The translations under genes and the position numbers were made by a program. Source: Flavobacteriales bacterium (GTDB taxonomy: Bacteria > Bacteroidota > Bacteroidia > Flavobacteriales_F > PHOS-HE28). From it: a stretch of 41,685 nt of DNA. The notes under the pieces were generated by a model, which saw only the letters and a program-made list of their open reading frames with translations, was not told the DNA's origin and made no database searches. Below, one piece after another: positions 2,486 through 37,159 of the stretch. Numbering within the stretch: position 1 is the first letter of the stretch; every line of letters begins with the position of its first letter. Location: positions 1 to 41,685 of the forward strand of contig JABWBQ010000048.1 of the NCBI GenBank assembly GCA_013360395.1, written 5' to 3'.

Positions 2486-3796
2486 TCAGTGCCACAGCAG
2501 CCAGAAGGCCGCGATGCCGCCGAAATACCCCAGCGCCGCAGGCACCGTCATCCGCCGCAGGTACCAGCCGAAGTCGATGCCCAGGATCCCCATCACCGCC
2601 ACCCCGGCCGCGCTGCCGATGATGAGCATGCTGCCCCCCGTGCCCGCGCAATAGGCCAGCAGCTCCCAGAAGGGATGGTCCGTGGGGAACTGCGCCAGCG
2701 GGTACATGCCCATGGCGGCGGCCACCAGCGGCACGTTGTCCACCACCGCGCTCAGCACCCCGATCACGGTGTTGATGGCGAAGATGTCGCCCAGCGAGCG
2801 GTCCAGCAGGTGCGCCACGTCCGTGAGGTGGCCCGCCACCTGCAGCCCGGCCACCGCCACCAGGATGCCCAGGAAGAACAGAATGCTGCTGTGGTCGATG
2901 CGCTTCAGGATGGAGGAGACCGTCATGTGCTGGCGCTCGGACCATTGCGGATGCCGCAGGTGGATGAACTCGGTGAACACCCACAACACGCCCAGGCCGA
3001 GCATCAGGCCCATGAAGGGCGGCAGGTGCGTCACCGCCTTGAACAGGGGCACCCCCAGCAGCGTGGCCATGCCCAGGAAGAACACCAGGTACTTCTCGCG
3101 CGCACCGAGCCGCGACGGCGAACCGGCGGCGTCCTGCGCCGGCACCTCCACCAGGTGCAGCCGCCCTTTGGCCCGGGCGGACAGGTACAGCAGCGGCAGC
3201 ACCAGGCACACCACGCTGGGCACGAAGAGCCTCAGGATGATGTTGGCCGTGGTGACCTGCCCCCCGATCCACAGCATGATGGTGGTGACGTCGCCGATCG
3301 GGCTCCAGGCACCGCCCGCGTTCGCCGCGATGATCACCAGGCCCGCGAAGGTCCACACGTCCTCCTTGTCGCGGATGAACTTGCGCAGCAGCGCCGCCAT
3401 CACGATCGCCGTGGTCATGTTGTCCAGCGCCGCGCTCAGGAAGAAGGTGATCGCACCGATCACCCACAGCAGCGCCCGCTTGTTCGTGCTGCGGATGCGG
3501 TCGGTGATCACCCGGAAGCCCTCGTGCGCATCCATCAGCTCCACCACCGCCATGGCGCCCAGCAGGAAGAAGAGGATGCTCGCGATCTGGCTCAGGTGCT
3601 CGTAGAGCTGATGCAGCAGGTGCTCGTGCCCGCCCTCCGCCGGTGGGAAGAGCTCGTCGTGCCCCAGCATGATCACCGTCCAGATCAACATGCCCGTGAG
3701 GACCGCGCTCGCCGCCTTGTTGATCTTCAACGGGTGCTCCAGGGCGATGCACGCGTAACCGACCAGGAAGATGAGCGCGATCAACAGGTAGGACAT
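2486..3796 (-). CDS. nhaD: NhaD-type Na+/H+ antiporter
   Basis: A 436-residue polytopic inner-membrane protein of the ion transporter superfamily (NhaD/ArsB-like). It should exchange cytoplasmic Na+ (or Li+) for protons. About a dozen hydrophobic segments are visible. The conserved ALDNMTTAIVMAALL and NAGGAWSPIGDVTTIMLW blocks in the first half and the SAVVDNVPLVAAAMGMYP and GTGGSMLIIGSAAGVAVMG blocks in the second half are the paired re-entrant motifs of the family. I chose the start at 3796 (MSYLLIALIFLV), because a longer frame to 3892 would add a polar leader and pass through the likely promoter (TAACCTTG, 3814-3821). It is divergent with the restriction-modification island. Confidence 0.88.
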   Translation of the reverse strand: MSYLLIALIFLVGYACIALEHPLKINKAASAVLTGMLIWTVIMLGHDELFPPAEGGHEHLLHQLYEHLSQIASILFFLLGAMAVVELMDAHEGFRVITDRIRSTNKRALLWVIGAITFFLSAALDNMTTAIVMAALLRKFIRDKEDVWTFAGLVIIAANAGGAWSPIGDVTTIMLWIGGQVTTANIILRLFVPSVVCLVLPLLYLSARAKGRLHLVEVPAQDAAGSPSRLGAREKYLVFFLGMATLLGVPLFKAVTHLPPFMGLMLGLGVLWVFTEFIHLRHPQWSERQHMTVSSILKRIDHSSILFFLGILVAVAGLQVAGHLTDVAHLLDRSLGDIFAINTVIGVLSAVVDNVPLVAAAMGMYPLAQFPTDHPFWELLAYCAGTGGSMLIIGSAAGVAVMGILGIDFGWYLRRMTVPAALGYFGGIAAFWLLWH

Positions 3797-3813
3797 GGGG
3801 CTCGGCGGGGCAG

Positions 3814-3821
3814 CAAGGTTA
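3814..3821 (-). promoter_or_regulatory. -7 promoter-like element for nhaD
   Basis: The minus strand reads TAACCTTG, 17 bases before the chosen nhaD start at 3796. It supports 3796 rather than the upstream start at 3892. Confidence 0.4.
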
Positions 3822-3925
3822 GGGCAATTCCCCTTGCACGCCCACACAAGCCCGGCCACCGCGGCCATGCCGAAGCCCGGGAGAGGGCGCACTAAGAAAG
3901 ATCCATGCCGAGACGGGGACTGAGG

Positions 3926-3999
3926 TTGCAGGACTGTCCTATGTCCTATGCTTGAACCGCCGGTTCTGCATTCGCATAGGGCATAAGACAGACCTGCAA
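3926..3999. repeat. Imperfect 26-base inverted repeat with inner hairpin
   Basis: The left arm 3926-3951 and right arm 3974-3999 are inverted copies matching at 23 of 26 positions. They are separated by 22 bases that hold a second small hairpin (GAACC 3954-3958 with GGTTC 3962-3966). The left arm also carries a short direct duplication (TCCTATG twice, with one overlapping base). It sits in the divergent gap between nhaD and hsdM, so it cannot be a terminator for either gene. Candidates are an operator, a cruciform or structured leader, or a remnant of a small mobile element at the island's left edge. Confidence 0.7.
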
Positions 4000-4083
4000 A
4001 GGGCGGGATTGCGGGTGGGACTTACGCACCGCTCCTCCCCCGCTCCCTGTTCCTTTCCATCTTTATCCCGTTGATCCCCTCCC

Positions 4084-6498
4084 ATGGCCCTCAAGAAATC
4101 CGACCTCTACGCCTCCCTCTGGAAAAGCTGCGACGAGCTGCGCGGCGGCATGGACGCCAGCCAGTACAAGGACTACGTGCTCACCATCCTCTTCGTGAAG
4201 TATGTGAGCGACAAGTACGCCGGGCGCACCGATAGCGTCGTCACCGTGCCCAAGGGCGGCGGCTTCGCCGACATGGTGGCCGCCAAGAACAGCAAGGACA
4301 TCGGCGACCGCATCAACAAGATCATCGCCCGGCTGGCCGAGGAGAACGAGCTGAAGGGCGTGATCGACCTCACCGACTTCAACGACGAGGAGAAGCTCGG
4401 CAAGGGCAAGGACATGGTGGACCGCCTCACCAAGCTCATCGGCATCTTCGAGGACCCCGGCCTCAACTTCAGCCGCAACCGCAGCGACGACGACGACATC
4501 CTGGGCGATGCCTACGAGTACCTCATGCGGCACTTCGCCACCGAGAGCGGCAAGAGCAAGGGGCAGTTCTACACCCCCGCCGAGGTGAGCCGCGTGCTCG
4601 CCGCCGTGATCGGTGTGGACCAGGCTACGGCCCGGAGCCAATCCGTGTACGACCCCACCTGCGGCTCCGGCTCGCTGCTGCTGAAGGTGGTGGACGCCGC
4701 CCCCGTGGGCCTCACCATCTACGGGCAGGAGAACGACAACGCCACCAAGGCCCTCGCCGTGATGAACATGTGGCTGCACGGCAACCCCACGGCAGAGATC
4801 TGGAAGGGCAACACCCTGAGCGAACCCCACTTCCTGGACAGCGGGCGCCTGAAACAGTTCGACTATGTGGTGGCCAACCCGCCCTTCAGCCAGAAGAACT
4901 GGAAGACCGGCTTCGACCCCGCCAACGACCCCTACGAACGCTTCAAGGGCTACGGCCTGCCGCCCGACAAGAACGGCGACTACGCCTTCCTGCTCCACAT
5001 CCTGAAGAGCCTGAAGAGCACCGGTACCGCCGCGGTGATCCTGCCGCACGGGGTGCTCTTCCGCGGCAATGCCGAGGCCGCCATCCGCAAGAACCTGGTG
5101 GAGCGTAAGGTGATCAAGGGCATCATCGGCCTGCCCGCCAACCTTTTCTACGGCACCGGCATCCCCGCCTGCATCATCGTGCTGGACAAGGCCGGGGCCG
5201 AGAAGCGCAGCGGCATCTTCATCATCGACGCCAGCAAGGGCTACATCAAGGACGGCAACAAGAACCGGCTGCGCGAGCAGGACATCCACCGCATCACCGA
5301 CGTGTTCCGCACGCAGGCCGAGGTGCCGCGCTTCAGCCGCCTGGTGGCTTGGGACGAGATCCAGCGCAACGAGTACAACCTGAACATCCCCCGCTACATC
5401 GACAGCACCGAGCCGGAGGACATCCAGGACCTGAGCGCCCACCTGCAGGGCGGCATCCCCGACCGCGACCTGGATGCGCTGGCGCCCTACTGGACCGTGT
5501 ACCCCGGCCTGCGCAAGGACCTCTTCGCTCCCAACGCCCGCAAAGGCTACAGCGACCTGAAGGTGCCCACCGCCGAGGTGCGGGCGCGCATATTCGGCCA
5601 CCCGGAGTTCACCGCCTACGCCGCCGAACTGGAGGCCGTGTTCATCCAATGGCGCACCGCGAACGTGCCCACCCTGCGCGGGGTGGATGGCAAGACCAAG
5701 CCGCGCCCCTTCATTGCCGCGCTGGGCGAGGGCCTGCTGAAGGCCTACATGGGCAAGGCGCTGGTGGACCCCTACACCATGTACCAGCACCTGATGGACT
5801 ACTGGAACAGCACCCTGAAGGACGATGTGTACATGCTGGTGGAGGAGGGCTGGCGGGCGGTGCCCGAACCGGTGAAGGACAAGAAGACCGGCAAGGTGAA
5901 GGCCGGGGAGTTCACCTGCGACCTGCTGCCCCAGCGGTTGGTGATCGCCCGCACCTTCGCCAAGGAGCAGGCCAAGGTGGAGGAACTGCAACGCGCCCAC
6001 GAGACCCTGGCGCAGCAACTGGAGGAGCTTATCGAGGAGCACAGCGGCGAGGAAGGCGCATTGGCCGAGTGCCTGAACGAGAAGGGCAAGGTGACCAAGG
6101 CCGGGGTGGCGGCGCGCTTTGCGGAGATAGCCAAGGACCCGGATTATGCCGAGGAGGTGAAGGTGCTGAAGGAAGTGGACCGGCTGATGGAGGCCGAGGC
6201 TAAGGCCAAGAAGGCGCACAAGGTGGCCTTTGAAGCCTTGGACACCGCCGCGTGGAACCACTACAAGCAGCTCACCGAGGCCGAGGTGAAGGAGCTGGTG
6301 GTGAACGACAAGTGGTTGGCCGACCTGCATGCCGCCGTGCTGGGCGAGCAGGAACGCATCAGCCAGCGTCTGGCTGCCCGCGTGGTGGAATTGGCCGAAC
6401 GCTACGGCCGCACCCTGCCCGCCCTGGACCGCGAGGTGGAGGCCCTGACCGCCAAGGTGGAACAGCACCTGAAACACATGGAGCTGGCATGGCAATGA
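4084..6498 (+). CDS. hsdM: Type I restriction-modification system, methyltransferase subunit
   Basis: An 804-residue HsdM, the N6-adenine methyltransferase subunit that pairs with HsdS to modify host DNA using S-adenosylmethionine. The N-terminal helical domain (about residues 1-150) precedes the catalytic core. The AdoMet motif DPTCGSG is at 190-196, and the catalytic NPPF is at 265-268. The last ~270 residues are an extended helical, Lys/Glu-rich, coiled-coil-like tail absent from ~500-residue HsdMs but seen in longer type I M subunits. The start at 4084 gives the normal N-terminus. Its stop overlaps the start of hsdS, so the two are translationally coupled, as expected for subunits of one complex. 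Confidence 0.95.
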   Translation: MALKKSDLYASLWKSCDELRGGMDASQYKDYVLTILFVKYVSDKYAGRTDSVVTVPKGGGFADMVAAKNSKDIGDRINKIIARLAEENELKGVIDLTDFNDEEKLGKGKDMVDRLTKLIGIFEDPGLNFSRNRSDDDDILGDAYEYLMRHFATESGKSKGQFYTPAEVSRVLAAVIGVDQATARSQSVYDPTCGSGSLLLKVVDAAPVGLTIYGQENDNATKALAVMNMWLHGNPTAEIWKGNTLSEPHFLDSGRLKQFDYVVANPPFSQKNWKTGFDPANDPYERFKGYGLPPDKNGDYAFLLHILKSLKSTGTAAVILPHGVLFRGNAEAAIRKNLVERKVIKGIIGLPANLFYGTGIPACIIVLDKAGAEKRSGIFIIDASKGYIKDGNKNRLREQDIHRITDVFRTQAEVPRFSRLVAWDEIQRNEYNLNIPRYIDSTEPEDIQDLSAHLQGGIPDRDLDALAPYWTVYPGLRKDLFAPNARKGYSDLKVPTAEVRARIFGHPEFTAYAAELEAVFIQWRTANVPTLRGVDGKTKPRPFIAALGEGLLKAYMGKALVDPYTMYQHLMDYWNSTLKDDVYMLVEEGWRAVPEPVKDKKTGKVKAGEFTCDLLPQRLVIARTFAKEQAKVEELQRAHETLAQQLEELIEEHSGEEGALAECLNEKGKVTKAGVAARFAEIAKDPDYAEEVKVLKEVDRLMEAEAKAKKAHKVAFEALDTAAWNHYKQLTEAEVKELVVNDKWLADLHAAVLGEQERISQRLAARVVELAERYGRTLPALDREVEALTAKVEQHLKHMELAWQ

Positions 6499-7769
6499 GC
6501 AGCCCCAGCGTTACTGCCGAAATGCGCCAGTCCGAGGTAGGAATGGTGCCGAGCGATTGGCAAGTTGTGCCATTGGGAAGCATCATGGATTTCAGGAACG
6601 GCGTGAATGCCGACAAGGCTGCATACGGGTCCGGAGTAGCGTTCATTAACGTACTTGAGGTGATCACCAAGCCTCACCTGCACCTCGCAGATATTCCGGG
6701 CCGGGTCGCGTTATCGAAGGCCACTATTGATTCCTACGCCGTGCGGCGGGGTGATGTGCTGTTCAACCGCACTTCAGAGACGCTGGAAGAAGTGGGATTG
6801 GCTTCAGTCTTCCTCGATGATTCCCAAGTGGTATTTGGAGGGTTCGTCATCAGGGGGCGTCCATCAGCTAACGTGCTTGACCCGACGTACTGCGGATACG
6901 GGTTGCGTCATCCGGCGGTACGGTCACAGTTGATCGCAAGAGGTCAAGGAGCGATCAGGGCGAATATTGGTCAAGCCGATATGCGGCAAGTCTTCGTTCC
7001 CCTACCACCCATCGAAGAACAACGCGCCATCGCCACGGCGCTCTCGGATGTGGATGGTTTGCTGGCGGGGCTGGATGCGCTGATCGCCAAGAAGAAGGCC
7101 CTGAAGCAGGGCGCCATGCAGCAGCTGCTCACCGGCAAGCAACGGCTGCCGGGGTTCAAGGGGGAGTGGGTGGTGAGGAGGCTGGGAGAGCTTGGATCCG
7201 TCTATGGTGGCCTAACCGGTAAGTCCAAGGCGGACTTCGGGACAGGCAACGCACGCTACATACCCTTCATGAACATCATGCAAGGGCCTATCATCGACAC
7301 AGGGTTCTTGGAGCAGGTCCGCGTGGGCGCGCATGAGTCACAGAACCGAGCGATGAAGGGAGACCTCTTCTTCAATGGCTCGTCCGAGACACCTGAAGAG
7401 GTCGGTATGTGCTCCGTGTTGAGGGAGGACATCCCCAACCTCTACTTGAACAGCTTCTCGTTCGCCTTCCGTCTGCAGAAGGACCTGAAGACCGACCCCA
7501 TGTTCCTGAGCTACTGGTTCCGGAGCCCTGCCGGAAGGCAGGTTATCTACTCGTCTGCGCAGGGTGCCACACGCTACAACTTGGCCAAGAGCAACTTTCT
7601 GCGGCTGGAGGTTCCGTGTCCATCACCGGAAGAGCAAACCGCCATCGCCGAGGTGCTGAGCGACATGGATGCGGAGCTGGGCGCGCTGGAGGCGCGTCGT
7701 GCGAAGACGGCGCTGCTGAAGCAGGGCATGATGCAGGAATTACTGACGGGAAGGACGAGGTTGGTGTGA
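6489..7769 (+). CDS. hsdS: Type I restriction-modification system, specificity subunit
   Basis: A 426-residue HsdS, the DNA-recognition subunit shared by the methyltransferase and restriction complexes. It shows the normal two-fold layout. Target-recognition domain 1 (about 15-168) is followed by a central conserved helix region (about 170-222, LSDVDGLLAGLDALIAKKK then LTGKQRLPGF). Recognition domain 2 (about 224-376) is followed by a terminal helix region (about 378-426, LSDMDAELGALEARR then LTGRTRLV). ATG codons at 6489 and 6495 both overlap the hsdM stop; 6489 is used here. The two recognition domains share a GD-hydrophobic-FN-x-SET-x-EEVG motif. They are visibly richer in A/T than the helical parts, which fits domain swapping by recombination. 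Confidence 0.94.
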   Translation: MAMSSPSVTAEMRQSEVGMVPSDWQVVPLGSIMDFRNGVNADKAAYGSGVAFINVLEVITKPHLHLADIPGRVALSKATIDSYAVRRGDVLFNRTSETLEEVGLASVFLDDSQVVFGGFVIRGRPSANVLDPTYCGYGLRHPAVRSQLIARGQGAIRANIGQADMRQVFVPLPPIEEQRAIATALSDVDGLLAGLDALIAKKKALKQGAMQQLLTGKQRLPGFKGEWVVRRLGELGSVYGGLTGKSKADFGTGNARYIPFMNIMQGPIIDTGFLEQVRVGAHESQNRAMKGDLFFNGSSETPEEVGMCSVLREDIPNLYLNSFSFAFRLQKDLKTDPMFLSYWFRSPAGRQVIYSSAQGATRYNLAKSNFLRLEVPCPSPEEQTAIAEVLSDMDAELGALEARRAKTALLKQGMMQELLTGRTRLV

Positions 7770-7797: not shown

Positions 7798-9291
7798 ATG
7801 GCCAAGAAGCGCAACACTGATCCTCGTTCCATGATGGAGTTGGCCGTCGCGGTGATGGAGCGCTCCATCCGCGAACACCGCCCGGATGCCAAAGCGAGTC
7901 CCCTTGTCGGCGCCGTACTTGTGTTTCCTGATGGCACGGTGGATTCGGCCTTTCGAGGCGAGTTACGCGATGGGGACCATGCAGAATTCACCCTGCTGGA
8001 ACGCAAGAACCGGCATCGTGCTTTGGACGGGTCCGTGCTCTATGCCACGTTGGAACCTTGTGCACCGGGATCGCGCAACCACCCCAAGTTGGGCTGTGCT
8101 GAGCGCATCGTGTTGGCCCGGATCAAGCAGGTGTACATCGGTATCGCTGACCCCGACCCCAAGGTGGACCGCAAGGGGATCCAGTATTTGCTGGCCAACG
8201 GCGTAACGGTGACCATGTTCGACCGAGATCTGCAGGAAAAGATCCAGGACGTGAACAAAGCGTTCATCGCCCAAGCGGAACAACGCGCCCAGGAGGCGAA
8301 GGAAAAAACCACCAAGGAGGTCGTTCTATCGCCTTTGGAGCAACCCATGAAGTCGGTGAAGGATACTGACCTATCCGTGTCCGCGTTGAGGCGCTATCGA
8401 TCCATGATGACGCAAAGTGGGCGAATGGATAATGCGACTTTCGATCGAATGCTCATTCACCAAGGCGTGCTCATTGAACGGGATGGAGAGCTTACGCCCA
8501 GCGGCTTTGGTGCGTTGCTCTTCGGTGCCAACCCTCGAAACTTGATGCCGCAGGCAGGCTTACTGGGCACCATTCGTTTCCCAGATGGCAAGGAGGAGAC
8601 CCGCGATTTCGACGGTCCCTTGGTGGAGATACCCGAAAAGGTGGAGCAATGGCTGAGGGATAAACTGCCCAATTTGCTTGACCGCGGGACAATGAGGGCC
8701 ACGAGGCAAGAGGCGGTGCCCTTCGAGCTCGTACGCGAGGCCGTGGTGAACGCGTTGGTGCATCGCGACTATGGCATCAAGGGCGCCAAGTGTCAGTTGG
8801 TCGTGGATACAGACAAGGTGGTGGTGAAAAGCCCCGGCGCTCCGGTGGAACCCATCACTCTGGAGAAGCTGCAGGCTTTCGATGCTCCCATGTTGAGCCG
8901 CAATCCGGTGTTGCATTACGTGTTCAACAAGCTGGGACTTGCGGAGGAGCGGGGCTTGGGGTTGCGGGCCTTGAAGGAGCGGAGCAAGGAACTGGGCATG
9001 CCCATGCCCACATACCGGTGGAACGCACCGTACTTGGAGCTTACGCTCTATCGTAGCGCACAAGGAGCGGTAGCCGCATTGGCCGATATTGCATTGGGCG
9101 AACTGAACCGGACCGAACGTGAAGGCTTGGCCTACTTGACCCGGATGGGAGCTTTGACCGTTGCTGCCTACGCAAAGCATCTTGACCTGGATCTGCGCCA
9201 GGCACGGAGGCATCTCCAGCACTTCGAGCGGCTCGGCTTGGTCCGGGCTGAGGGTCAGACACGCTCACGACGATATGTTCTTGTCCAATAA
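7798..9291 (+). CDS. Deaminase-GHKL ATPase-winged helix fusion in the hsd operon
   Basis: A 497-residue multidomain protein. Residues 1-150 form a cytidine-deaminase-fold domain of RibD type: H61-A-E63 and P87-C88 with C100 give the zinc ligands and proton-shuttling Glu, and DPDPKVDRKGIQYLLANGV matches the RibD substrate-side loop. A charged helical linker follows (about 165-195). Residues 200-410 match the ATP-binding module often annotated as RecG-C-terminal-like or HATPase_c_4: LTPSGFGALLFG, REAVVNALVHRDY (312-325, with N318 of the Bergerat fold) and ERGLGLRALKER. Residues 425-497 look like a winged helix. Relatives of the second part usually start with an AlbA/Schlafen-type domain; here the deaminase takes that place. 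It lies 28 bases after hsdS. Base use is less GC-rich than in its neighbours. The substrate is unknown: a free nucleotide, a modified base or a nucleotide signal are all possible. Confidence 0.82.
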   Translation: MAKKRNTDPRSMMELAVAVMERSIREHRPDAKASPLVGAVLVFPDGTVDSAFRGELRDGDHAEFTLLERKNRHRALDGSVLYATLEPCAPGSRNHPKLGCAERIVLARIKQVYIGIADPDPKVDRKGIQYLLANGVTVTMFDRDLQEKIQDVNKAFIAQAEQRAQEAKEKTTKEVVLSPLEQPMKSVKDTDLSVSALRRYRSMMTQSGRMDNATFDRMLIHQGVLIERDGELTPSGFGALLFGANPRNLMPQAGLLGTIRFPDGKEETRDFDGPLVEIPEKVEQWLRDKLPNLLDRGTMRATRQEAVPFELVREAVVNALVHRDYGIKGAKCQLVVDTDKVVVKSPGAPVEPITLEKLQAFDAPMLSRNPVLHYVFNKLGLAEERGLGLRALKERSKELGMPMPTYRWNAPYLELTLYRSAQGAVAALADIALGELNRTEREGLAYLTRMGALTVAAYAKHLDLDLRQARRHLQHFERLGLVRAEGQTRSRRYVLVQ

Positions 9292-9320
9292 ACCCATGTG
9301 CGCCTTGCTGCTGAATGCTC

Positions 9321-9554
9321 TTCGGACATTATTTCGGACGCCATGTCCGGAATTGGTGATAGATGCGCCTGGGCCACCTCTTTCCGGACATGATTGCGGA
9401 CATCATGTCCGGAAAGTCGATCGCCTCGCCGCATGCCGGTGTCCGGAAGAACGCCAACCAGCCAACTCGCCGATCACACACAGGCGTTGGGGGAAACTGG
9501 CCATCCGCATGACGACCGAGGAGGTTCCCGCAATTATCCCGCAGTTCTCGCGGG
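9321..9554. promoter_or_regulatory. Palindrome-rich hsdR upstream region (candidate operators)
   Basis: The 279-base gap before hsdR holds a set of related symmetric sites. A perfect inverted repeat has 14-base arms at 9381-9394 (TTTCCGGACATGAT) and 9402-9415, with a 7-base spacer. A second dyad uses TTTCGGAC (9332-9339) and GTCCGGAA (9345-9352) with one mismatch. A further half-site GTCCGGAA is at 9441-9448 and a CGGACATT at 9323-9330. A CCCGC/GCGGG dyad (9538-9542, 9550-9554) ends 16 bases before the hsdR start. No gene is visible in the gap. Repeated half-sites with dyad symmetry suggest a DNA-binding regulator of hsdR. Confidence 0.55.
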
Positions 9555-9570
9555 CAACTGGTAACCGAAC

Positions 9571-12500
9571 ATGACCGACATCGGCCAGCGCGAACGGCAG
9601 ACCCAGGAGCGGGTGATCCGCTTTTTCCAGAGGGTGCTCCAATGGGAGTACCTGGGCAACTGGGAGGAGCGCGAGAACCGCAACGTGGAGGAGCAATGGC
9701 TGCGCACCTTCCTGGAGGGGCGTTGCTCCGAGACCCTGGTGAACAAGGCCGTCCACGAACTGCAACGGGTGGCCGGTGACCAGAGCCGGGACCTGTACGA
9801 CGTGAACAAGGACGTGTACCGCCTGCTGCGCTACGGCGTGCGGGTGAGCGAGGGCCTGGGCACGCACAAGGAGACCGTGCACCTGATCGACTGGGAGTTT
9901 CCCCAGAAGAACCACTTCGGCATCGCCGAGGAGGTCACCGTGACGGGCGAGCACAAGAAGCGCCCGGACCTGGTGCTTTACGTGAATGGCATCGCCCTGG
10001 GGGTGATCGAACTGAAGCGCGGCACGGTGAGCGTGAGCGAGGGCATCCGCCAGAACCTGGACAACCAGCAGAGCCGCTTCATCCAACGCTTCTTCACCAC
10101 CATGCAGCTGGTGATGGCGGGCAACGACACGGAAGGCGCCCGCTACGGCACCATCCTCACCCCCGAGAAGTACTACCTGAAGTGGAAGGAGGAGAGCCGG
10201 GGCGAATACCGGCACCTGCTGGACCGGCACCTGTTCCAGCTCTGCAACAAGGAGCGCTTCCTGGAGCTGGTCCACGACTTCACCCTCTTCGATGCGGGCA
10301 TCAAGAAGGTGTGCAGGCCGCACCAGTACTTCGGGGTGCGGGCCGCGCAGCAGAAGGTGGTGGACCGCGAGGGCGGCATCATCTGGCATTGCCAGGGCAG
10401 CGGCAAGAGCCTCACCATGGTGTGGCTGGCCCAATGGATCCGCGAGCACATCGAGGACGCCCGCGTGCTGGTGATCACCGACCGCGACGAGCTGGACAAG
10501 CAGATCGTGCGCGTGTTCGGCGATGCCGGGGAGCAGATGCACCGCGCCCGGAGCGGGGCGGAGCTGATCCACCTGCTGGACCGGAACGAGCAGCCGCTGA
10601 TCTGCTCGCTGGTCCACAAGTTCGGCCGCCGGGAGGATGGGGACTACGAAAGCTTCATCGAGGAGATCCGCCACAGCCTGCCCAAGGACTTCAAGGCCAA
10701 GGGCCGCATCCACGTGTTCGTGGACGAATGCCACCGCACCCAGAGCGGCAAGCTGCACCAAGCGATGAAGGCCATCCTGCCCGATGCGCTCTTCATCGGC
10801 TTCACCGGCACCCCGCTGCTGCGCAAGGACAAGAGCACCAGTCTGGAGGTCTTCGGGCCTTACATCCACACCTACAAGTTCGACGAGGCCGTGAACGACA
10901 AGGTGGTGCTGGACCTGCGCTACGAGCCGCGCGACATCGACCAGCGCATCACCGACCAGCAGAGCATCGACGAATGGTTCGAGGCCACCACCAAGGGCCT
11001 CACCGACCTGGCCAAGGCCGAGCTGAAGAAGCGCTGGGGCACCCTGCGCAAGCTGTTCAGCTCGAAGGGCCGCCTGGAGAAGATCGTCTTCGACATCCTC
11101 AAGGACTTCCGCACCAAGCCCCGGCTGGCCACGGGCGACGGCAACGCCATCCTCGTGGCCGGCAGCGTGTACGAAGCGTGCAAGTTCTACGAACTGTTCC
11201 AGCAAGCGGGCTTCAAGGAATGCGCGATCGTCACCAGCTACGAGCCGAGCGTGGGGCGGATCAAGGGCGAGACCACGGGCGACGGCCGCGAGACGGAGGA
11301 ACTGGAGAAGTACACCACCTACGTGAAGATGCTGGCGGGCAAGGACCCGGAGACCTTCGAGGAGGAGGCGAAGAAGCTCTTCATCAAGGAGCCGGCCCGC
11401 ATGAAGCTGTTGATCGTGGTGGACAAGCTGCTCACCGGCTTCGATGCCCCCGCGGCCACCTACCTGTACATCGACAAGAGCATGCAGGACCACGGCCTGT
11501 TCCAGGCCATCTGCCGCGTGAACCGCCTGGACGACGAGGACAAGGAGTTCGGCTACATCGTGGACTACAAGGACCTGTTCCGCAGCCTGAACAAGTCGAT
11601 CAAGGACTACACCAGCGGGGCCTTCGATGCCTACGACAAGCGCGATGTGGAGGGCCTGCTGAAGAACCGCCTGGAGATGGCCCGCGAACGACTGGACGGC
11701 GCCTTGGAAGCGGTGATCGCGTTGTGCGAGCCGGTGCACCCGCGCGACCAGATGGCCTTCATCCGCTTCTTCTGCGGCGACCCGGAGAACGGTGAGGACC
11801 TGGCCAACACCGAGGACCAACGCCTGGGGCTGTACAAGCTCACGGCCGCGCTGATCCGCGCCTTCGCCAATGTGGCCAACGAACTGGCCGATGCCGGCTA
11901 CACCCGGGAAGAGGCCGAACGGATCCGCAAGGAAGTGGAGTTCCATACGCAACTGCGGGACACCATCAAGCTGGCCAGCGGCGACCACATCGACCTGAAG
12001 GCCTACGAGGCGGACATGCGCCAACTGATCGACATGTACATCAGCGCCGACCCCAGCCGCCAACTCGGCTCCTTCGACGACATGTCCCTGGTGGACCTGA
12101 TCGTGAAGCACGGCCTTACCGCCTTGGACAAGCTGCCGGAGGAACTGAAGAAGAACGAGACCGCCAGCGCCGAAACGATCGAGAACAACGTGCGCCGGGT
12201 GATCATCGAGGAGCGGCCCACGAACCCGAAGTACTTCGACAAGATGTCCGAACTGCTGGCCCAGTTGATCGAGGATCGGCGCAAGGGAGCCCTAGAGTAC
12301 CAAGCCTACTTGCAGCAGATCGCGGAACTGGCCCGGCAGGTGAAACATCCGGGCGGCGCGGCGTATCCCAACGGGGTGGATTCCAACGCCAAGCGCGCCC
12401 TCTACGACAACCTGGAGCGGAACGAGGAACTCGCCCTGGCGTTGGATGCCGAGGTGCGCCGGGTGAAACAGGACGGCTGGCGCGGGAACCGGCTCCGGGA

Positions 12501-12594
12501 GAAGGAGGTGAAGCTGGCCGTGCAGCGCATCCTGCCCCACGCCTTCGACCTGGATGCCATCTTCGATCTGATCAAGAGCCAACGTGAGTACTGA
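9571..12594 (+). CDS. hsdR: Type I restriction-modification system, endonuclease/translocase subunit
   Basis: A 1007-residue HsdR, the motor and nuclease subunit that, with HsdM and HsdS, translocates unmodified DNA with ATP and cuts it at a distance. The N-terminal PD-(D/E)xK nuclease is intact (D133, E147-x-K149). The superfamily 2 helicase core follows: Walker A CQGSGKS at 274-280, DECH at 385-388 and the FTGTP motif shortly after. A C-terminal helical region (about 770-1007) would bind the methyltransferase core. The start at 9571 is the first ATG after the palindrome-rich gap and gives the expected N-terminus. The gap means hsdR can be expressed independently of hsdMS. Its stop overlaps the next gene by 11 bases. 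Confidence 0.95.
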   Translation: MTDIGQRERQTQERVIRFFQRVLQWEYLGNWEERENRNVEEQWLRTFLEGRCSETLVNKAVHELQRVAGDQSRDLYDVNKDVYRLLRYGVRVSEGLGTHKETVHLIDWEFPQKNHFGIAEEVTVTGEHKKRPDLVLYVNGIALGVIELKRGTVSVSEGIRQNLDNQQSRFIQRFFTTMQLVMAGNDTEGARYGTILTPEKYYLKWKEESRGEYRHLLDRHLFQLCNKERFLELVHDFTLFDAGIKKVCRPHQYFGVRAAQQKVVDREGGIIWHCQGSGKSLTMVWLAQWIREHIEDARVLVITDRDELDKQIVRVFGDAGEQMHRARSGAELIHLLDRNEQPLICSLVHKFGRREDGDYESFIEEIRHSLPKDFKAKGRIHVFVDECHRTQSGKLHQAMKAILPDALFIGFTGTPLLRKDKSTSLEVFGPYIHTYKFDEAVNDKVVLDLRYEPRDIDQRITDQQSIDEWFEATTKGLTDLAKAELKKRWGTLRKLFSSKGRLEKIVFDILKDFRTKPRLATGDGNAILVAGSVYEACKFYELFQQAGFKECAIVTSYEPSVGRIKGETTGDGRETEELEKYTTYVKMLAGKDPETFEEEAKKLFIKEPARMKLLIVVDKLLTGFDAPAATYLYIDKSMQDHGLFQAICRVNRLDDEDKEFGYIVDYKDLFRSLNKSIKDYTSGAFDAYDKRDVEGLLKNRLEMARERLDGALEAVIALCEPVHPRDQMAFIRFFCGDPENGEDLANTEDQRLGLYKLTAALIRAFANVANELADAGYTREEAERIRKEVEFHTQLRDTIKLASGDHIDLKAYEADMRQLIDMYISADPSRQLGSFDDMSLVDLIVKHGLTALDKLPEELKKNETASAETIENNVRRVIIEERPTNPKYFDKMSELLAQLIEDRRKGALEYQAYLQQIAELARQVKHPGGAAYPNGVDSNAKRALYDNLERNEELALALDAEVRRVKQDGWRGNRLREKEVKLAVQRILPHAFDLDAIFDLIKSQREY

Positions 12595-13312
12595 GCGCAA
12601 ACGGATCACGGTGAGCGGCATCGCGGTGGATGTGGTGCGCAAGGACATCAAGAATGCCCACCTGGCCGTGTATCCGCCCCATGGGCGCGTCCGGATCGCC
12701 GCGCCGCTGCGGATGAGCGACCGGAGCATCCGGCTGCTGGCGGTCACCAAGCTGGCCTGGATCCGCAAGAACCGGAAGCGCATTGAGCAGCAGCCACGGG
12801 AAGCCCCGCGGGAGTATGTGAACGGGGAGAGCCATTATTTCCAAGGCCGCCGCTACCGGCTGCGTGTCATCGAAGCCTCCGGCAAGCATCGCGTGGAGCT
12901 GAAGAACGGTCGGTATATGATCCTGCATGTGCACCGTGGGGCATCCACAGCCTCCAAGGACCGGACCATGCGGGAATGGTACCGCGAACAGGTGAAGGCC
13001 CTGGCCGGTCCATTGTTCGCCAAATGGGCTCCGGTCGTAGGGGCGGAACCCGCCCAATGGGGCGTGAAGGTGATGCGCACCAAATGGGGATCATGCAACC
13101 ACAAGGCGGGCAACATCTGGCTGAACCTGGAACTCGCCAAGAAGCCGCCGCGCTGCCTGGAGTACATCATCGTGCATGAGCTCGTGCACCTGTTGGAGCA
13201 CACGCACAACGCACGGTTCGTCGCCTACATGGACCGCTTCATGCCGAACTGGAAAGCCAGGCGGACCGAGCTCAATGCCATGCCGGTAAGGCATGAGGAA
13301 TGGACGTATTGA
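12584..13312 (+). CDS. YgjP-like zinc metallopeptidase (M48/SprT-like)
   Basis: A 242-residue protein of the YgjP/DUF45 family. The zinc-binding HELVH motif is at residues 198-202 with a following H206, and the KWGSC motif that precedes it in this family is present about 30 residues earlier. It has no signal peptide, so it acts in the cytosol if active. The likely start is a GTG at 12584, overlapping the end of hsdR by 11 bases; there is no ATG nearby that would keep the family N-terminus. Such genes are often found directly behind hsdR. HsdR is a known target of host proteolysis in some type I systems (ClpXP control), so a dedicated protease controlling HsdR is a reasonable inference, but the sequence does not prove it. 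Confidence 0.85.
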   Translation: MSTERKRITVSGIAVDVVRKDIKNAHLAVYPPHGRVRIAAPLRMSDRSIRLLAVTKLAWIRKNRKRIEQQPREAPREYVNGESHYFQGRRYRLRVIEASGKHRVELKNGRYMILHVHRGASTASKDRTMREWYREQVKALAGPLFAKWAPVVGAEPAQWGVKVMRTKWGSCNHKAGNIWLNLELAKKPPRCLEYIIVHELVHLLEHTHNARFVAYMDRFMPNWKARRTELNAMPVRHEEWTY

Positions 13313-13774: not shown

Positions 13775-16408
13775 ATGCCTGTTGAGATCCCTTTTTCGTC
13801 CGTTGAGCTGGAGCGGCTGCAACGCCACTACGCTTCATTGAAGGACAAGCCCAGCTACGACGCCTTCATCCGCAGCGCCCACGCGCTGCTGCAACGCATC
13901 GGCGCGGACCCGTACCATGTGCGTATGGCGCTCACGAACGGCCATAGCATGATGGAGTTCGGCAGCCGCGCTGCATATCGGCATAAGGAAGATGCGCATG
14001 GCATCGGTGTCGGCCTGCTGGTGATGGAGGCGGACCTACCATTGGTGCCGGAAGAACTGAGACAGGATGTGGACCGCTTCAAACCGAGCGGCGAAACGGC
14101 ATACGTGAAATTCACCGTGCCCACATGGGCCGATATCCCCCAGGGCCTGCTGGCCATGAATGAAAAGGCCATGCGCTGGGAGTACGAACGCATCAAGGAC
14201 ACCAAGCTGGTGGAGATCCGCCGGGGATCCAGCACGGACAACGAGGCGCTGCGCTATGCGGTGGTTAACGGCATCACTGTACCCGAGCTGCCCGGTCCGC
14301 TGGGTTTGGTCATGGTCAATATCACCTGGAACAGCAACGATTGGAAACGCCCCAGCGATGACCCCAGCGATCACCGTTACGTGAAGGCGGGTAATACGCC
14401 CTATGAGAGCTGGAACTTCGATTTCGACAATCCGCGCAATACTCCGGAGAAGATCTACGGCTACTCTCAACGCACGGCGGAACCCAAGGTGACCGGGTCC
14501 AACAACCTGGTGATCTTCTACAGCCAGGGCAAGATCGTCGGGTTCTACGGCGGCGCGGAGTTCCTGCACGAAAAGATCCACGTGAACGACCAGCAGGATT
14601 GCAACATCGTCGGAGACCGGTCCCTGTCGTTGGTGCTGCCCCGCAAGCTGGACGACATCAAGGCGAAGGGCTACCTGGAGGACAAGCAGCGAATGGGGCA
14701 GAACGGCTTCATCTACTTGGAGGATCCCGGCACGGCCCTGCGGATGATCGATGAAGCGATCGACCTCAACCCCTCGGAGGCCGAAACCTTGCAGAGATTA
14801 CGGAACTGGCTGACCGACCGAGCACCGAGTAGTAGATCCGCAGCAACAAGCAATGAATCCGAACAGATGAAGATCCCATTGAACCGCATCTTCTACGGCC
14901 CGCCGGGCACCGGCAAGACCTTCCACACCGTGGGTGCGGCCGTGGCCGTGTGCGATCCCGCTTTCTACGCGGAGCACAAGGACGATCCCGCCCAGCTGCG
15001 CGAGCGTTTCAATGAGCTCCTTGTGAAGGACATGAAGAAGGCGGATGGCCAGATCGCCTTCTGTACCTTCCACCAGAGCTACAGCTACGAGGATTTCGTG
15101 GAGGGGATCAAGCCCGTGGAGGTCGAGGAGGATTCCGTGCAGCCGTTGCGCTATCACACGCGGCCGGGCATCCTGAAGGAGATGGCCCGCCGGGCCGGGA
15201 TCCGCGCCAGCGGCGAGGCGGCCAAGATGAAGCATAAGCTGGGCTTCACCCCCGAACAGTTCGACCAGGCCCAATTCTTCAAGCTGTCCTTGGGCGACAC
15301 CCAGAACCCCGAGGACCAGCTCATCTACGACTATTGCATCGAGAACAAGTGCATCGCCATCGGCTTCATGCACCAGCATGACCTCACCGGCCTGAGTGAA
15401 CATCAGGTGCGTTCGCTTCCCTTGCAGGAAGGGCAATCGTCCTACCACACGGTGGCCATGAACTACTTCAGCCAGTACGTGAAGGAGGGCGATATCGTCG
15501 TGGTAACGAAGGGGAACTACCTGGTGCGCGCCATCGGGCGGGTTACCGGCCCGTACCGGTATGACCCGAGATCGCCGATCGGCTATCCGCATTTCCGCGA
15601 TGTGGAATGGCTGCTGGCGAACGAGGATATCCCCTATGAGGAATTGTATGGGCGACAGTTCTCCCAGCAATCCATCTACAAACTGAAAAAAGAGGACATC
15701 AAGCGCGACTTCTTCGTACGGTCAAGCGCTGCGGACCCGGCACCCGATGAAGCCAGGAACTTCGTCCTGATCATCGACGAGATCAACCGCGGCAACGTGG
15801 CGGGCATCTTCGGCGAGCTGATCACGCTGATCGAGGAGAACAAACGCAAGGGAAGGCCGGAGGCCCTGGAGGTGACCCTGCCCTATTCGCAGGAGCCCTT
15901 CAGCATCCCGGACAACCTGTATATCATCGGCACCATGAACACGGCCGACCGCAGCGTGGAGGCCCTGGATGCCGCGCTGCGCCGCCGCTTCAGCTTCACG
16001 GCCATGATGCCGGAACCGGGCCTGCTCCAGCCGCTGCAGGGTTCCGCCATCGACCTCGCCGCGATGCTGGGGCGCATCAACGCGCGCCTGGTGCAATTGC
16101 TGGACGAGGACCACCAGATCGGCCACAGCCACTTCTGGGACCTCCACAAGGAAGCCGATCCGCTGCCCGCCTTGCGCCAGGTCTTCACGGACAAGGTGAT
16201 CCCGCAGTTGGAGGAGTATTTCCACCGCGACCGAGCCAAGTTGCAACTGGTGCTCGGCGAGCGGTTCGTCAGCGGCAGCGACCCCGCCGATGATCTTTTC
16301 CTGGGGGATGCGAATGCCATGGCCCCCGACCCGCGTACGGTCTATACGATCACCCCGATGGACACCTGGGACGAAGCGGCCTTCCGTTCCCTCTATGAAA
16401 AGGTCTGA
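13775..16408 (+). CDS. mcrB: McrB-like GTPase/AAA+ restriction subunit with EVE-like domain
   Basis: An 877-residue McrB homologue, the motor and recognition subunit of a modification-dependent restriction system; McrB proteins are GTP-driven AAA+ motors. Walker A GPPGTGKT is at 375-382, Walker B IIDEINRGN near 666-674, and the McrB sensor MNTADRS followed by LDAALRRRF near 721-737. Between Walker A and B, about residues 498-613, lies an EVE/YTH-like module: FFKLSLGDT, AIGF, GDIVVVTKGNYLVRAIGRVTG and a final VEWL. These domains bind modified bases. The first ~340 residues form a domain I cannot assign. It starts at the ATG at 13775 and overlaps mcrC by 14 bases. Confidence 0.88.
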   Translation: MPVEIPFSSVELERLQRHYASLKDKPSYDAFIRSAHALLQRIGADPYHVRMALTNGHSMMEFGSRAAYRHKEDAHGIGVGLLVMEADLPLVPEELRQDVDRFKPSGETAYVKFTVPTWADIPQGLLAMNEKAMRWEYERIKDTKLVEIRRGSSTDNEALRYAVVNGITVPELPGPLGLVMVNITWNSNDWKRPSDDPSDHRYVKAGNTPYESWNFDFDNPRNTPEKIYGYSQRTAEPKVTGSNNLVIFYSQGKIVGFYGGAEFLHEKIHVNDQQDCNIVGDRSLSLVLPRKLDDIKAKGYLEDKQRMGQNGFIYLEDPGTALRMIDEAIDLNPSEAETLQRLRNWLTDRAPSSRSAATSNESEQMKIPLNRIFYGPPGTGKTFHTVGAAVAVCDPAFYAEHKDDPAQLRERFNELLVKDMKKADGQIAFCTFHQSYSYEDFVEGIKPVEVEEDSVQPLRYHTRPGILKEMARRAGIRASGEAAKMKHKLGFTPEQFDQAQFFKLSLGDTQNPEDQLIYDYCIENKCIAIGFMHQHDLTGLSEHQVRSLPLQEGQSSYHTVAMNYFSQYVKEGDIVVVTKGNYLVRAIGRVTGPYRYDPRSPIGYPHFRDVEWLLANEDIPYEELYGRQFSQQSIYKLKKEDIKRDFFVRSSAADPAPDEARNFVLIIDEINRGNVAGIFGELITLIEENKRKGRPEALEVTLPYSQEPFSIPDNLYIIGTMNTADRSVEALDAALRRRFSFTAMMPEPGLLQPLQGSAIDLAAMLGRINARLVQLLDEDHQIGHSHFWDLHKEADPLPALRQVFTDKVIPQLEEYFHRDRAKLQLVLGERFVSGSDPADDLFLGDANAMAPDPRTVYTITPMDTWDEAAFRSLYEKV

Positions 16409-17711
16409 GCCCATCAAGGTCTTCGAGCACCAGCGCCTCACGTGGAAGGAGGCGGGCTTGTCCGCATCCCAGGTGGACCGGCTCATCGCCTGGAACGAGG
16501 CCAGCGGGAACCGCTTCCTCACGGTGGGCCACAAGAGCTTCACCTTCACCGAACATGTGGGCGTGGTGCAGGTCGGCCGCACGGTGATCGAAGTGCTGCC
16601 CAAGGCGGACCGCACGGAAGGGAACGGCGCCGAAACCAAGGCCAAGTGGCAGAACGCGCTGATCACCATGCTGCGCGAGGTGTACGACTTGCCGATCACC
16701 GGCACCACCGACGCCGACCTGCACAAGCGCAGCAGCAGTATCCTGGATTTCTTCTTCGGCCTGTTCGTGAGCGACGTGGAGGAACTGGTCCACCAGGGCC
16801 TGGTGAAACGCTACCGGCTTTCCCGTGGGAACCAGACCGCGCTGAAGGGCCGCTTGGACTTTCCCCGTCACCTTCACCACAACCTCATCCACCAGGAGCG
16901 CTTCTATGTGGAGCACCAGGTCTACGACACGGACCACCTGCTCCACAGCCTGCTCAAGCGTGCATTGTCGCTCGTGGCCGACCTGGGCCGCGATACCGAG
17001 GTGACCGGCCGTGCCAAAGGCTTGGAATGGGCCTTCGAGGACGTGACGGACCGCCCCCTCACCCAGCAAGTCCTCGACCGCATCATCCTGGACCGCAAGA
17101 CGGCGCCCTACACACGGGCGGTCCAACTGGCCAGGATGATCGTGCTGAACCACGCCCCGGACGTGAAGGGCGGGCACATGCCGCTCATCGGGCTCATGTT
17201 CAACATGAACCGGCTCTTTGAGGAATTCGTGTTCCGCGTGTTGCGCAAGGCGGCGAGGGCACCGGAGTTCCGGGCCCACGACCTCACGATCCGCAACCAA
17301 CGCTCCATGCGCTTCTGGAACGGCAAGACCATCCGTCCGGACCTGGTGCTGGAGTACGAACGGGAAGGCCAACCGAAGCGCATCATCGTGGACACCAAGT
17401 GGAAGGTGCCGCCCAATGGCAAGCCGAACGACGCCGACCTGAAGCAGATGTTCGTGTACAACGTGCAGCTCGATGCGAGCGAGAGCGTGCTGCTGTATCC
17501 GGCCACGGCAAATTGCGAACCCGCCTCCGGCCGTTATTCGGAAACGGCGAGGCTGCCCGGCTGGCCCCATCATTGCCACATGGAACATGCCCGGTTGTTC
17601 CGCTTCGACGGATCGCTATCGGCCGGCGCGGGCGCGGAGTTGCTGCGGATGCTTGTCAGTCATTCAGCCTCGTCCCACGTTCTCCCGTCCATGAACGACC
17701 AACGCACATGA
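16395..17711 (+). CDS. mcrC: McrC-like restriction endonuclease subunit
   Basis: A 438-residue McrC homologue, the nuclease subunit that binds the McrB ring, stimulates its nucleotide hydrolysis and cuts DNA. The N-terminal half has the family start (VFEHQRLTW, then VGVVQVGRTVIEVLPK) and a helical middle. The C-terminal PD-(D/E)xK centre is visible as RPD316-LVLEYE and VD333-T-K335, with a downstream QMFVYN motif. The start at 16395 lies inside the last codons of mcrB, so the pair is translationally coupled. The following 204 bases are AT-rich and carry the promoter of the next gene. Confidence 0.92.
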   Translation: MKRSEPIKVFEHQRLTWKEAGLSASQVDRLIAWNEASGNRFLTVGHKSFTFTEHVGVVQVGRTVIEVLPKADRTEGNGAETKAKWQNALITMLREVYDLPITGTTDADLHKRSSSILDFFFGLFVSDVEELVHQGLVKRYRLSRGNQTALKGRLDFPRHLHHNLIHQERFYVEHQVYDTDHLLHSLLKRALSLVADLGRDTEVTGRAKGLEWAFEDVTDRPLTQQVLDRIILDRKTAPYTRAVQLARMIVLNHAPDVKGGHMPLIGLMFNMNRLFEEFVFRVLRKAARAPEFRAHDLTIRNQRSMRFWNGKTIRPDLVLEYEREGQPKRIIVDTKWKVPPNGKPNDADLKQMFVYNVQLDASESVLLYPATANCEPASGRYSETARLPGWPHHCHMEHARLFRFDGSLSAGAGAELLRMLVSHSASSHVLPSMNDQRT

Positions 17712-17883
17712 CGATCGTTGCTTTGCGTCCATAGCCATTCTTGGTTCCAAGCTTAAGTCCTGCGTCCTAACGGCTCCCCTGCCGCCAAGGCCCCGCTCCA
17801 ACCACGCTCTATCACATTGGATGTCAACGGTTTATCGTTCAATGTTTCATTAACATCAACTCACTGACCTTATTCTGTGCTTT

Positions 17884-17911
17884 TAAGCTCAATCATTTGA
17901 GCTTATCTTTG
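17884..17911 (+). promoter_or_regulatory. Promoter with overlapping palindromic operator for the ATPase gene
   Basis: A perfect inverted repeat, TAAGCTCAA (17884-17892) and TTGAGCTTA (17897-17905) around TCAT, overlaps a full-consensus -7 element TATCTTTG (17904-17911). The ATPase start codon follows at 17916. A protein bound to the palindrome would cover the promoter, so repression, perhaps autogenous, is likely. The surrounding 150 bases are distinctly AT-rich. Confidence 0.6.
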
Positions 17912-17915
17912 TTTC

Positions 17916-19340
17916 ATGCTCGAAGTTCCTGAATCCGAGATACTTGCCAGGCTCCACGAAGAGAACCCCTGGTGGCAGGCGGGGCGCGGCATCCACCCCG
18001 ACCTCGTCCACCTGCCGCGCCGGGCTTATCTGAATGACTTCTGCCGGTTGGTACGTGAAAAGGACCCGCACCGTGCCGTGGTGCTCATGGGGCCGCGCCG
18101 CGTGGGCAAGACCTACCTGGTGATGCACACCATCCACGAGCTGATGGAGCGCCACGGCGTTTCGGGCCGCGACATCCTGTACGTGATGCTGGAGACCCCG
18201 ATCTACAACCGGCAGGGGCTGGATGCATTGGTGGCGCGGTTCCGCAAACTGTTCGAGCGCCCCGCCGGCCAAACGCTCCACGTCTTCTTCGACGAGGTGC
18301 AATACCTGAAGGAATGGGAGGTGCACCTCAAGACCTTGGTGGACCGGCACCGCGACATCCGCTTCGTGGCCACCGGCAGCAGCGCCGTGGCGCTGAAGAC
18401 CAGGAGCGCCGAGAGCGGGGCCGGGCGCTTCACGGAGTACATGCTGCCGCCGCTCACCTTCGCCGAGTACCTGCGCTTCATCGGCAGGGAGGAAGCGCTG
18501 ATCACGGCACACGGCGATGGACCGGCCCCGCGCTACCGTGCCACCGACATCGTGGGCCTGAACCGGGCCTTCATCGACTACATGAACCACGGGGGCTACC
18601 CGGAAGCCGTGTTCTCGGCGCGCCTGCAACAGGACCCGCAGCGCTACATCAAGAACGACATCATCGACAAGGTGCTGCTGCGCGACCTGCCCACGCTGTA
18701 CGGCATCGCCGACATCCAGGAACTGAACAGCCTGTTCAACACGCTGGCCTACCACACCAGCCGCGAGGTGAGCATGGAGGAACTGAGCAAGACCAGTAAC
18801 GTGGCCAAGAACACCCTGGCCAAGTACCTGGAGTACCTCGAGGCCGCCTTCCTGATCCGCCAGATGCGCCGCGTGGACGAGGACGTGACGCACTTCAAGC
18901 GCAAGACCACCTTCAAGGTCTTCCTCACCAACCCCACCATGCGGGCGGCCCTGTTCAATCCCCTGCGTGAAGGCGACCCGGCGCTGGGCCAGCAGGTGGA
19001 GACGGCCATCCACAGCCAGTGGATCCACAACCGCGACTTCATCGATTCGCTGCACTATGCCCGATGGAAGAGCGGCGAGGTGGACTTCGTCAGCCTGGAC
19101 CGTTCCGGCCGGAAGGCGCGTTTCGCCGTGGAAGTGAAATGGAGCGATGCCGCCTGGGACGTTCCCCGGCAGATCAAGGGGCTGCTGGCCTTCTGCAAGA
19201 AACACCGGCTGGAAAGGCGCCCGCTGGTGACCACCCTCACCCGCGAAGGCGTGCGTACGCTGGAAGGCGTGGAAGTGGAATTCACCCCCAGCAGCCTGCA
19301 CTGCTACACCGTGGGCAGGAACAGCCTGGACCGCCGGTGA
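17916..19340 (+). CDS. AAA_14/DUF4143 family ATPase
   Basis: A 474-residue ATPase of the large family with an N-terminal AAA_14 module and a C-terminal DUF4143 domain. Walker A GPRRVGKT is at 59-66 and Walker B FFDEVQ at 124-129. The DUF4143 part includes LRDLPTLYGI and a helix-turn-helix-like stretch (SKTSNVAKNTLAKYLEYLEAA). It ends in a PD-(D/E)xK-like pattern, GEVDF near residue 388 and VEVKW near 406. The cellular role of the family is unknown; such genes are common in accessory and defence regions. It has its own promoter/operator. The last 16 codons are duplicated at 13446. Confidence 0.87.
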   Translation: MLEVPESEILARLHEENPWWQAGRGIHPDLVHLPRRAYLNDFCRLVREKDPHRAVVLMGPRRVGKTYLVMHTIHELMERHGVSGRDILYVMLETPIYNRQGLDALVARFRKLFERPAGQTLHVFFDEVQYLKEWEVHLKTLVDRHRDIRFVATGSSAVALKTRSAESGAGRFTEYMLPPLTFAEYLRFIGREEALITAHGDGPAPRYRATDIVGLNRAFIDYMNHGGYPEAVFSARLQQDPQRYIKNDIIDKVLLRDLPTLYGIADIQELNSLFNTLAYHTSREVSMEELSKTSNVAKNTLAKYLEYLEAAFLIRQMRRVDEDVTHFKRKTTFKVFLTNPTMRAALFNPLREGDPALGQQVETAIHSQWIHNRDFIDSLHYARWKSGEVDFVSLDRSGRKARFAVEVKWSDAAWDVPRQIKGLLAFCKKHRLERRPLVTTLTREGVRTLEGVEVEFTPSSLHCYTVGRNSLDRR

Positions 19341-19342
19341 AC
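19292..19342 (+). repeat. 51-base direct repeat, right copy (3' end of ATPase gene)
   Basis: Exact partner of 13446-13496. It spans the last codons and stop of the ATPase gene plus two bases. The two copies bracket a 5.8-kb segment containing mcrB, mcrC and the ATPase. Confidence 0.9.
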
Positions 19343-19353
19343 GTCCCGCGACT

Positions 19354-19476
19354 TTCTCACCACCCTCACCTCTCTCCCCGCTCTCACCACCCTCACCTTC
19401 TTCACCTCCCTCACTTCTCTCACCACTCTCACCACCCTCACCACCCTCACCATTCTCACCATTCTCACCATTCTCT
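19354..19476. repeat. Degenerate 9-base minisatellite
   Basis: About a dozen imperfect tandem units close to CTCACCACC or CTCACCATT on the plus strand, most regular at the 3' end. It begins 12 bases after the 51-base repeat and ends just before the lemA promoter. The units have no unique spacers, so this is not a CRISPR array. The minus strand is open over the array because the unit is a multiple of three; this is not evidence of coding. Confidence 0.8.
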
Positions 19477-19486
19477 CCCCCCACGC

Positions 19487-19494
19487 TACATTCG
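19487..19494 (+). promoter_or_regulatory. -7 promoter-like element for lemA
   Basis: TACATTCG, 21 bases before the lemA start at 19516 and directly after the minisatellite. Confidence 0.4.
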
Positions 19495-19515
19495 TTCAAC
19501 CCAACACCACCCCGC

Positions 19516-37155: not shown

Positions 37156-37159
37156 CCGT

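Follow-up and report, generated by a model that had tools for sequence, protein, structure and literature searches.

Bacterial Schlafen-type proteins with a winged helix (Schlafen-wHTH) have been reported as auxiliary RNase effectors that are widespread in BREX loci, with a link there to anti-phage defence (PMC12839542). AvcID provides a deaminase of the CDA superfamily with an accepted mechanism in phage defence (PMC10511110), and the RADAR system consists of an AAA+ protein, RdrA, and a separate adenosine deaminase, RdrB (PMC9994260). In the type I restriction locus EcoprrI, PrrC is an accessory effector that serves as a second layer (PMC12707154). The biosynthetic deaminase RibD has been described by the motif PCxHxG(R/K)TPPC and by an Asn and a His in the substrate pocket (PMC3668577); in RibG a Lys/Arg contacts the substrate phosphate and is needed for activity (PMC8256712, PMC3668577).

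We analyzed a 41,685-nt stretch of DNA from a Flavobacteriales bacterium (the window), in which a type I restriction locus carries an additional gene for a three-domain protein. The initial annotation had placed this 497-aa fusion between hsdS and hsdR, which the ORF (7798–9291) and Pfam analysis of the neighbouring genes bear out. The features of the locus are as follows:

4084–6498, plus strand: hsdM, type I DNA methyltransferase subunit (Pfam N6_Mtase, E 2e-103, and HsdM_N; PADLOC MTase_I)
6252–7769, plus strand: hsdS, specificity subunit (Pfam Methylase_S in two stretches; PADLOC Specificity_I from residue 84); the start at 6252 is that of the longest ORF, which overlaps hsdM, and the gene probably begins further downstream
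7798–9291, plus strand: fusion of deaminase, HATPase_c_4 and winged helix, 497 aa (ORF and translation with an ATG start; full-length homologues; alignment)
7816–8292, plus strand: deaminase domain, residues 7–165, with H61, E63, C88, C100, RGE (53–55) and RNxPK (93–97) (Pfam, fold match, invariant columns, RibD/TadA column check)
8365–9060, plus strand: DIP2311-like/HATPase_c_4 module, residues 190–421, with E314, N318, H322, G386 and G388 invariant (Pfam, fold match to 3lmm, alignment)
9061–9288, plus strand: C-terminal winged helix, residues 422–497 (AlphaFold2 secondary structure, weak HTH matches, wHTH in homologues)
9571–12594, plus strand: hsdR, restriction/translocase subunit (Pfam HSDR_N, SWI2_SNF2 and T1R_D3-like; PADLOC REase_I)

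Downstream of the type I locus, positions 13775–17711, which the first reading had passed over, encode an McrB-like AAA_5 protein and McrC (McrBC, type IV restriction). In the window (12584–13312) and in three of the related loci described below (L014, 15608–15970; L015, 15049–15411; L016, 14349–14678), hsdR is followed by a gene for a YgjP-like metallopeptidase, either full or short.

Pfam detected dCMP_cyt_deam_1 at residues 11–115 (E 1e-9) and HATPase_c_4 at residues 329–417 (E 1.9e-14) of the window protein. The AlphaFold2 model, computed from the window protein plus 15 viral and genome-contig relatives (homologues from the phylum genome search were left out), had a mean pLDDT of 80.9; with a pTM of 0.51 the arrangement of the domains in it is unreliable. 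Residues 7–165 of the model adopt the CDA fold (RibG 2b3z, Z 20.7, rmsd 2.4 Å over 147 residues). Residues 190–421 matched DIP2311 (3lmm, chain residues 186–409) with Z 19.5 and an rmsd of 3.0 Å over 206 residues. The helical linker anticipated between the deaminase and the ATPase module was found at residues 143–176. The predicted winged helix at the C-terminus likewise appeared, over the last 75 residues, in the secondary structure of the model (helices 438–450, 455–462 and 466–478, strands 482–485 and 492–495), together with weak CasR and Csa3 HTH matches. The GHKL-type motif noted around N318 is present as R313-E-A-V-V-N318-A-L-V-H322-R-D-Y325, with its key residues invariant in eight homologues. 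The HATPase module has SPG in place of a recognizable DxGxG box, so ATP turnover is uncertain. PADLOC models for pAgo/SIR2 matched residues 136–424, the chassis part of the protein (ATPase module plus winged helix), at E 1e-11 to 1e-14; some such models seem to include the ATPase module and could mislabel proteins.

The chassis is of a known kind. Nine homologues that lack the deaminase are SLFN_AlbA_2-HATPase_c_4 proteins, most of them with a recognized wHTH, and one of these relatives, on a Synechococcus plasmid (L036), also lies between hsdS and hsdR. Pfam gave no SLFN_AlbA_2 match in the window protein, which has the deaminase in that place, and the alignment of the model with 3lmm begins only at residue 190 (chain residue 186). 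The fusion is therefore a Schlafen-type architecture with another N-terminal domain, joined at the same border (near residue 186–190), and the proposal that a deaminase replaces the AlbA_2/Schlafen domain holds. The fusion thus resembles bacterial Schlafen-type proteins in its ATPase and winged-helix chassis, in this border, in its hsdS–hsdR site (as in L036; others are reported from BREX loci) and in having short repeats, which are common in or beside their genes. It differs from them in having a zinc deaminase for SLFN_AlbA_2 and an ordered array of three half-sites per module outside the gene.

The deaminase ligands listed in the initial annotation are present (H61-A62-E63, P87-C88 and C100), and all of these residues are kept in eight of eight copies. 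An HxE and two zinc cysteines on a CDA fold (fold matches with Z 15–21) place the domain in the CDA superfamily. The domain is also among the best conserved parts of the fusion in the eight-copy alignment. Judged from sequence, this conservation and the invariant catalytic residues argue for catalysis. The description 'RibD-like' stands for the fold and fails for the details of the active site. Like RibD/RibG, the fusion has the HAE, the two zinc cysteines and a basic residue at the phosphate site, R93, which is invariant and aligns with the phosphate-site Lys/Arg of RibG. In a column check against RibD and TadA, however, the RibD motif was absent from the fusions, which have PC-(A/G)P-x-x-RNxPKxxC instead (shorter in L019). 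The RibD substrate Asn (of NP) is changed to S/T/P/D and the His to Arg, both being kept in all RibD rows. RGE and RNxPK form the family signature of the fusion deaminase. An invariant R93 combined with the changed Asn and His argues that the substrate carries a phosphate and is not the riboflavin precursor, and we infer an active deaminase with that type of substrate.

A tree that included RibD and TadA rows united the fusions in one clade (100/98), so that the N-terminal domain does not group with biosynthetic RibD and is neither RibD nor TadA. Four deaminases, L106 and L107 (IMG/VR) and then L091 and L092 (Streptomyces plasmids), joined on the fusion side, and the split from RibD plus TadA had a support of 98/93. 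The two IMG/VR sister deaminases (L106, 4282–5313; L107, 5001–5891) carry, one, a different N-terminal part and, the other, a different C-terminal part. The plasmid genes (L091, 3252–4399; L092, 2285–3432) are stand-alone deaminases of the wider clade beside a 'dihydrofolate reductase family' gene, an arrangement like a split RibD.

The best solved-structure sequence matches of the deaminase domain are RibD, which would fit a metabolic RibD paralogue that travels with the restriction genes by chance. We regard this as very improbable: the fusion protein scored 53.6 bits against the RibD model TIGR00326 (cut-off 156.35) and has no C-terminal reductase domain, a separate true RibD above the curated cut-off is encoded in seven of the eight fusion genomes, and the restriction context is recurrent. 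A riboflavin enzyme was ruled out by the clade position, the lost motif and substrate residues and the separate RibD genes. The sequence matches included TadA as well, and the CDA fold is common to TadA and other nucleic-acid deaminases. With a DNA-binding domain in the same chain, the winged helix and the restriction complex could direct the deaminase to DNA or RNA; the outcome would be mutation or marking of the nucleic acid instead of nucleotide depletion. This editing role seems unlikely, as the closest folds are those of RibD/RibG, which act on a small nucleotide, and the Arg at the phosphate contact does not vary.

Among 395 genomes of the phylum we recovered seven further full-length fusions with 39–53% identity in four other genera, repeatedly at restriction loci. 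The recurrence sought for the fusion is therefore found, and a chance join or assembly artefact was ruled out by the whole fusion in seven other genomes. The fusion was absent from all 44 other species searched in the window's genus, a pattern suggestive of horizontal acquisition. When the genus and class that harbour the other copies were searched with profiles (two class searches), no additional fusions emerged. No plasmid or phage was found to carry the fusion as a whole, and a contig scan with weakly conserved peptides of the window protein returned a chassis relative only. With a deaminase-only profile, nothing besides the fusions fell below E 1e-25 in 247 genomes of the phylum; within this sample, the clade is thus confined to deaminases on the chassis. 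The sampling covers one phylum, and four copies (L013–L016) share one genus, so that the eight copies represent about five independent loci. In the literature searched (coverage incomplete), no deaminase-HATPase_c_4-winged helix layout was described, in agreement with the original statement that no described defence system has exactly such a layout.

In five of the eight copies (the window and L013–L016), all of them downstream of hsdS, the next gene after the fusion is hsdR. HsdM and HsdR of L013–L016 are only ∼26–35% identical to those of the window. In L017 the order is hsdS, hsdR and then the fusion; the HsdR-like protein of this locus (2658–5822, minus strand), next to the fusion, has a C-terminal SLFN_AlbA_2 domain of its own. 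The L018 copy follows a SNF2-PLD helicase, a KilA-N protein and a type IIG-like enzyme, and no recognizable restriction or defence gene was found within about 8–10 kb of the L019 copy. Linkage to hsdS/hsdR thus recurs in six copies, with one copy beside a type IIG-like operon and one in neither context.

Three related loci carry different cargo at one and the same site between hsdS and the fusion: Lamassu LmuA-LmuC-LmuB in L014 (6905–10658), a SIR2 protein and a short pAgo in L015 (6896–10088) and a PrrC-like AAA_13 protein (PDC-S06) in L016 (7123–9351). All of this cargo is known or candidate defence. Upstream of the fusion in the same loci we found truncated copies of the 5′ end of hsdR (L014, ∼10663–10790; L015, ∼10102–10231; L016, ∼9380–9588), ∼75–90% identical to each locus's own hsdR. 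These are the scar of insertion or duplication at the hsdS–fusion junction, where the cargo has been swapped while the fusion persists.

A repeat array, overlooked in the first reading, occupies the 279-bp gap (9292–9570) between the fusion gene and hsdR:

9321–9351, plus strand: first three-half-site module (direct, direct after 12 bp, inverted), from the array scans
9383–9413, plus strand: second three-half-site module, exact, TCCGGACATGATTGCGGACATCATGTCCGGA, from the array scans
9440–9448, plus strand: isolated additional half-site, TGTCCGGAA

An array of one to three such modules, each with a direct half-site, a second direct one 12 bp on and an inverted one, is found directly 3′ of the gene in eight of eight loci. 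A scan of half-site spacings from 9 to 20 bp over these loci gave 16 matches at 12 bp and 0 at 9–11 or 13–20 bp. The modules are spaced 61–64 bp apart (about 62 bp); dinucleotide shuffles gave about 0. A period of 62 bp is not a multiple of three and corresponds to ∼six helical turns, which fits a protein on one face of the DNA and not a coding repeat. The half-site letters are specific to the locus (CGGACA in the window, CGCGACA in L013–L016, CCCGCAA in L017, TTGGACA in L018 and CCGGCAA in L019), the architecture being constant. At position 471, in the winged helix, Arg occurs where the half-sites are of the GACA type (the window, L013–L016 and L018) and Asn where they are of the GCAA type (L017 and L019), a pairing that, with few cases, is only suggestive. 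We infer that the winged helix binds the array. An array also stands behind copies that no hsdR follows, which argues that it belongs to the fusion itself and not to hsdR. As it lies 3′ of the gene and not at a promoter, classical autorepression is not the obvious reading.

Short repeats are also found with the chassis genes that lack a deaminase. Ladders of at least three short repeats in or beside the gene were counted in 17 of 30 such loci vs. 4 of 39 control tiles; a simpler two-copy count separated the two poorly (17/30 vs. 13/39). A strict three-half-site scan of 39 chassis loci gave few exact triples, and one of these loci, L057, is a fusion copy. Ladders with a period of 10–12 bp were seen in the deaminase-less Schlafen-type genes of L038 (3870–4010), L065 (1790–1835), L068 (1317–1485) and others. 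Some chassis ladders encode four-residue protein repeats (equal to 12 nucleotides) just before the winged helix, such as TTQKTTQK and KTSGKTSG. Among the control tiles, window positions 16250–19500 and 35750–39000 contain short-word clusters with at least three copies within 80 bp.

The main rival to an effector is a local controller of hsdR. The fusion would be a C-protein-like transcription factor that, on the array, delays or triggers HsdR, and its deaminase fold would be a nucleotide sensor or tune a ligand. The winged helix at the C-terminus would suit this role, as would an array that occupies the fusion–hsdR gap at five of the eight loci, a module whose two occurrences in the 3.68-Mb genome are both in the 9292–9570 gap (a local target), and a fusion that stays constant while the neighbouring effector cargo is swapped. 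Against it, L017, L018 and L019 have the array behind a fusion that is not followed by hsdR, and a pure sensor would not need all of the catalytic residues that are kept. We consider the controller possible, with odds well below even; at loci whose cargo makes up a full effector system by itself, a controller would be an equally good reading of the fusion.

Alternatively, transcription of the 62-nt repeats might yield an inhibitory RNA, the antitoxin to the deaminase in a type III toxin-antitoxin system. Tandem repeats adjoin the deaminase gene here, AvcI/AvcD shows that a deaminase of phage defence can be under RNA control (PMC10511110), and the modules fold as RNA better than shuffled sequences (z -2.5 to -6.4). 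However, palindromic DNA sites fold well as RNA anyway, and pairing in RNA does not need two half-sites that are direct repeats at exactly 12 bp. No Rfam family was above threshold in the window region, and related ladders lie inside the coding regions of chassis homologues that have no deaminase. Known type III RNA antitoxin repeats are found upstream of the toxin, whereas this array is downstream of the fusion gene. An RNA antitoxin is possible but weaker than a set of DNA sites, and a type III system appears quite improbable. AvcD, a deoxycytidylate deaminase toxin, is like the fusion in being a CDA-superfamily deaminase with repeats beside its gene. To our knowledge, it has no Schlafen-type chassis, is controlled by RNA and occurs outside restriction operons, a contrast with the fusion by description and not by sequence.

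Our preferred reading is a restriction-linked accessory defence protein on a Schlafen chassis, in which the deaminase is the effector and is controlled through the cognate array; we put its probability at about 0.5. The defence role is suggested by a chassis common to Schlafen-wHTH proteins, the restriction linkage, the defence cargo nearby, the invariant catalytic residues and the 12-bp arrays. The winged helix would bind the three half-sites of each module, with successive modules on one face of the DNA. The bound protein would be held as an inactive oligomer and/or would repress the gene behind the array, which is hsdR in five of the eight loci. The bound state would change upon infection, when restriction fails or when the HATPase module senses a nucleotide signal, and the released deaminase might then act on a phosphate-bearing base, probably in free nucleotides or nucleic acid. 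Restriction would thereby be backed by a second layer of defence, probably an abortive one, comparable to PrrC in EcoprrI. Toxicity of the deaminase is purely inferred. More tentatively, the effector may be held on a private array near hsdR and freed upon disturbance of the array or of the restriction complex; the chassis would be a general platform with its own operator on which effectors (RNase, deaminase) are swapped.

Set beside the other systems, PrrC differs in being an anticodon nuclease, whereas the candidate effector of the fusion is a deaminase; L016 has a PrrC-like gene beside its fusion. RADAR is alike in pairing an ATPase and a deaminase in defence, and unlike in that the ATPase of the fusion is of the GHKL type, with both activities predicted in one chain. 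The chassis is already known; the deaminase as candidate effector and the well-defined array are new.

If the preferred reading is true, a deaminase joins the effectors of the Schlafen-type chassis, and type I restriction gains a direct tie to the deamination of nucleotides or nucleic acid. With the cognate arrays it can be tested directly what the winged helix binds and why so many chassis genes carry short repeats. The cassette, found beside exchanged Lamassu, short-Argonaute and PrrC-like cargo, offers a marker by which new defence systems linked to restriction could be found, and the fusion deaminase clade could be useful in base editing.
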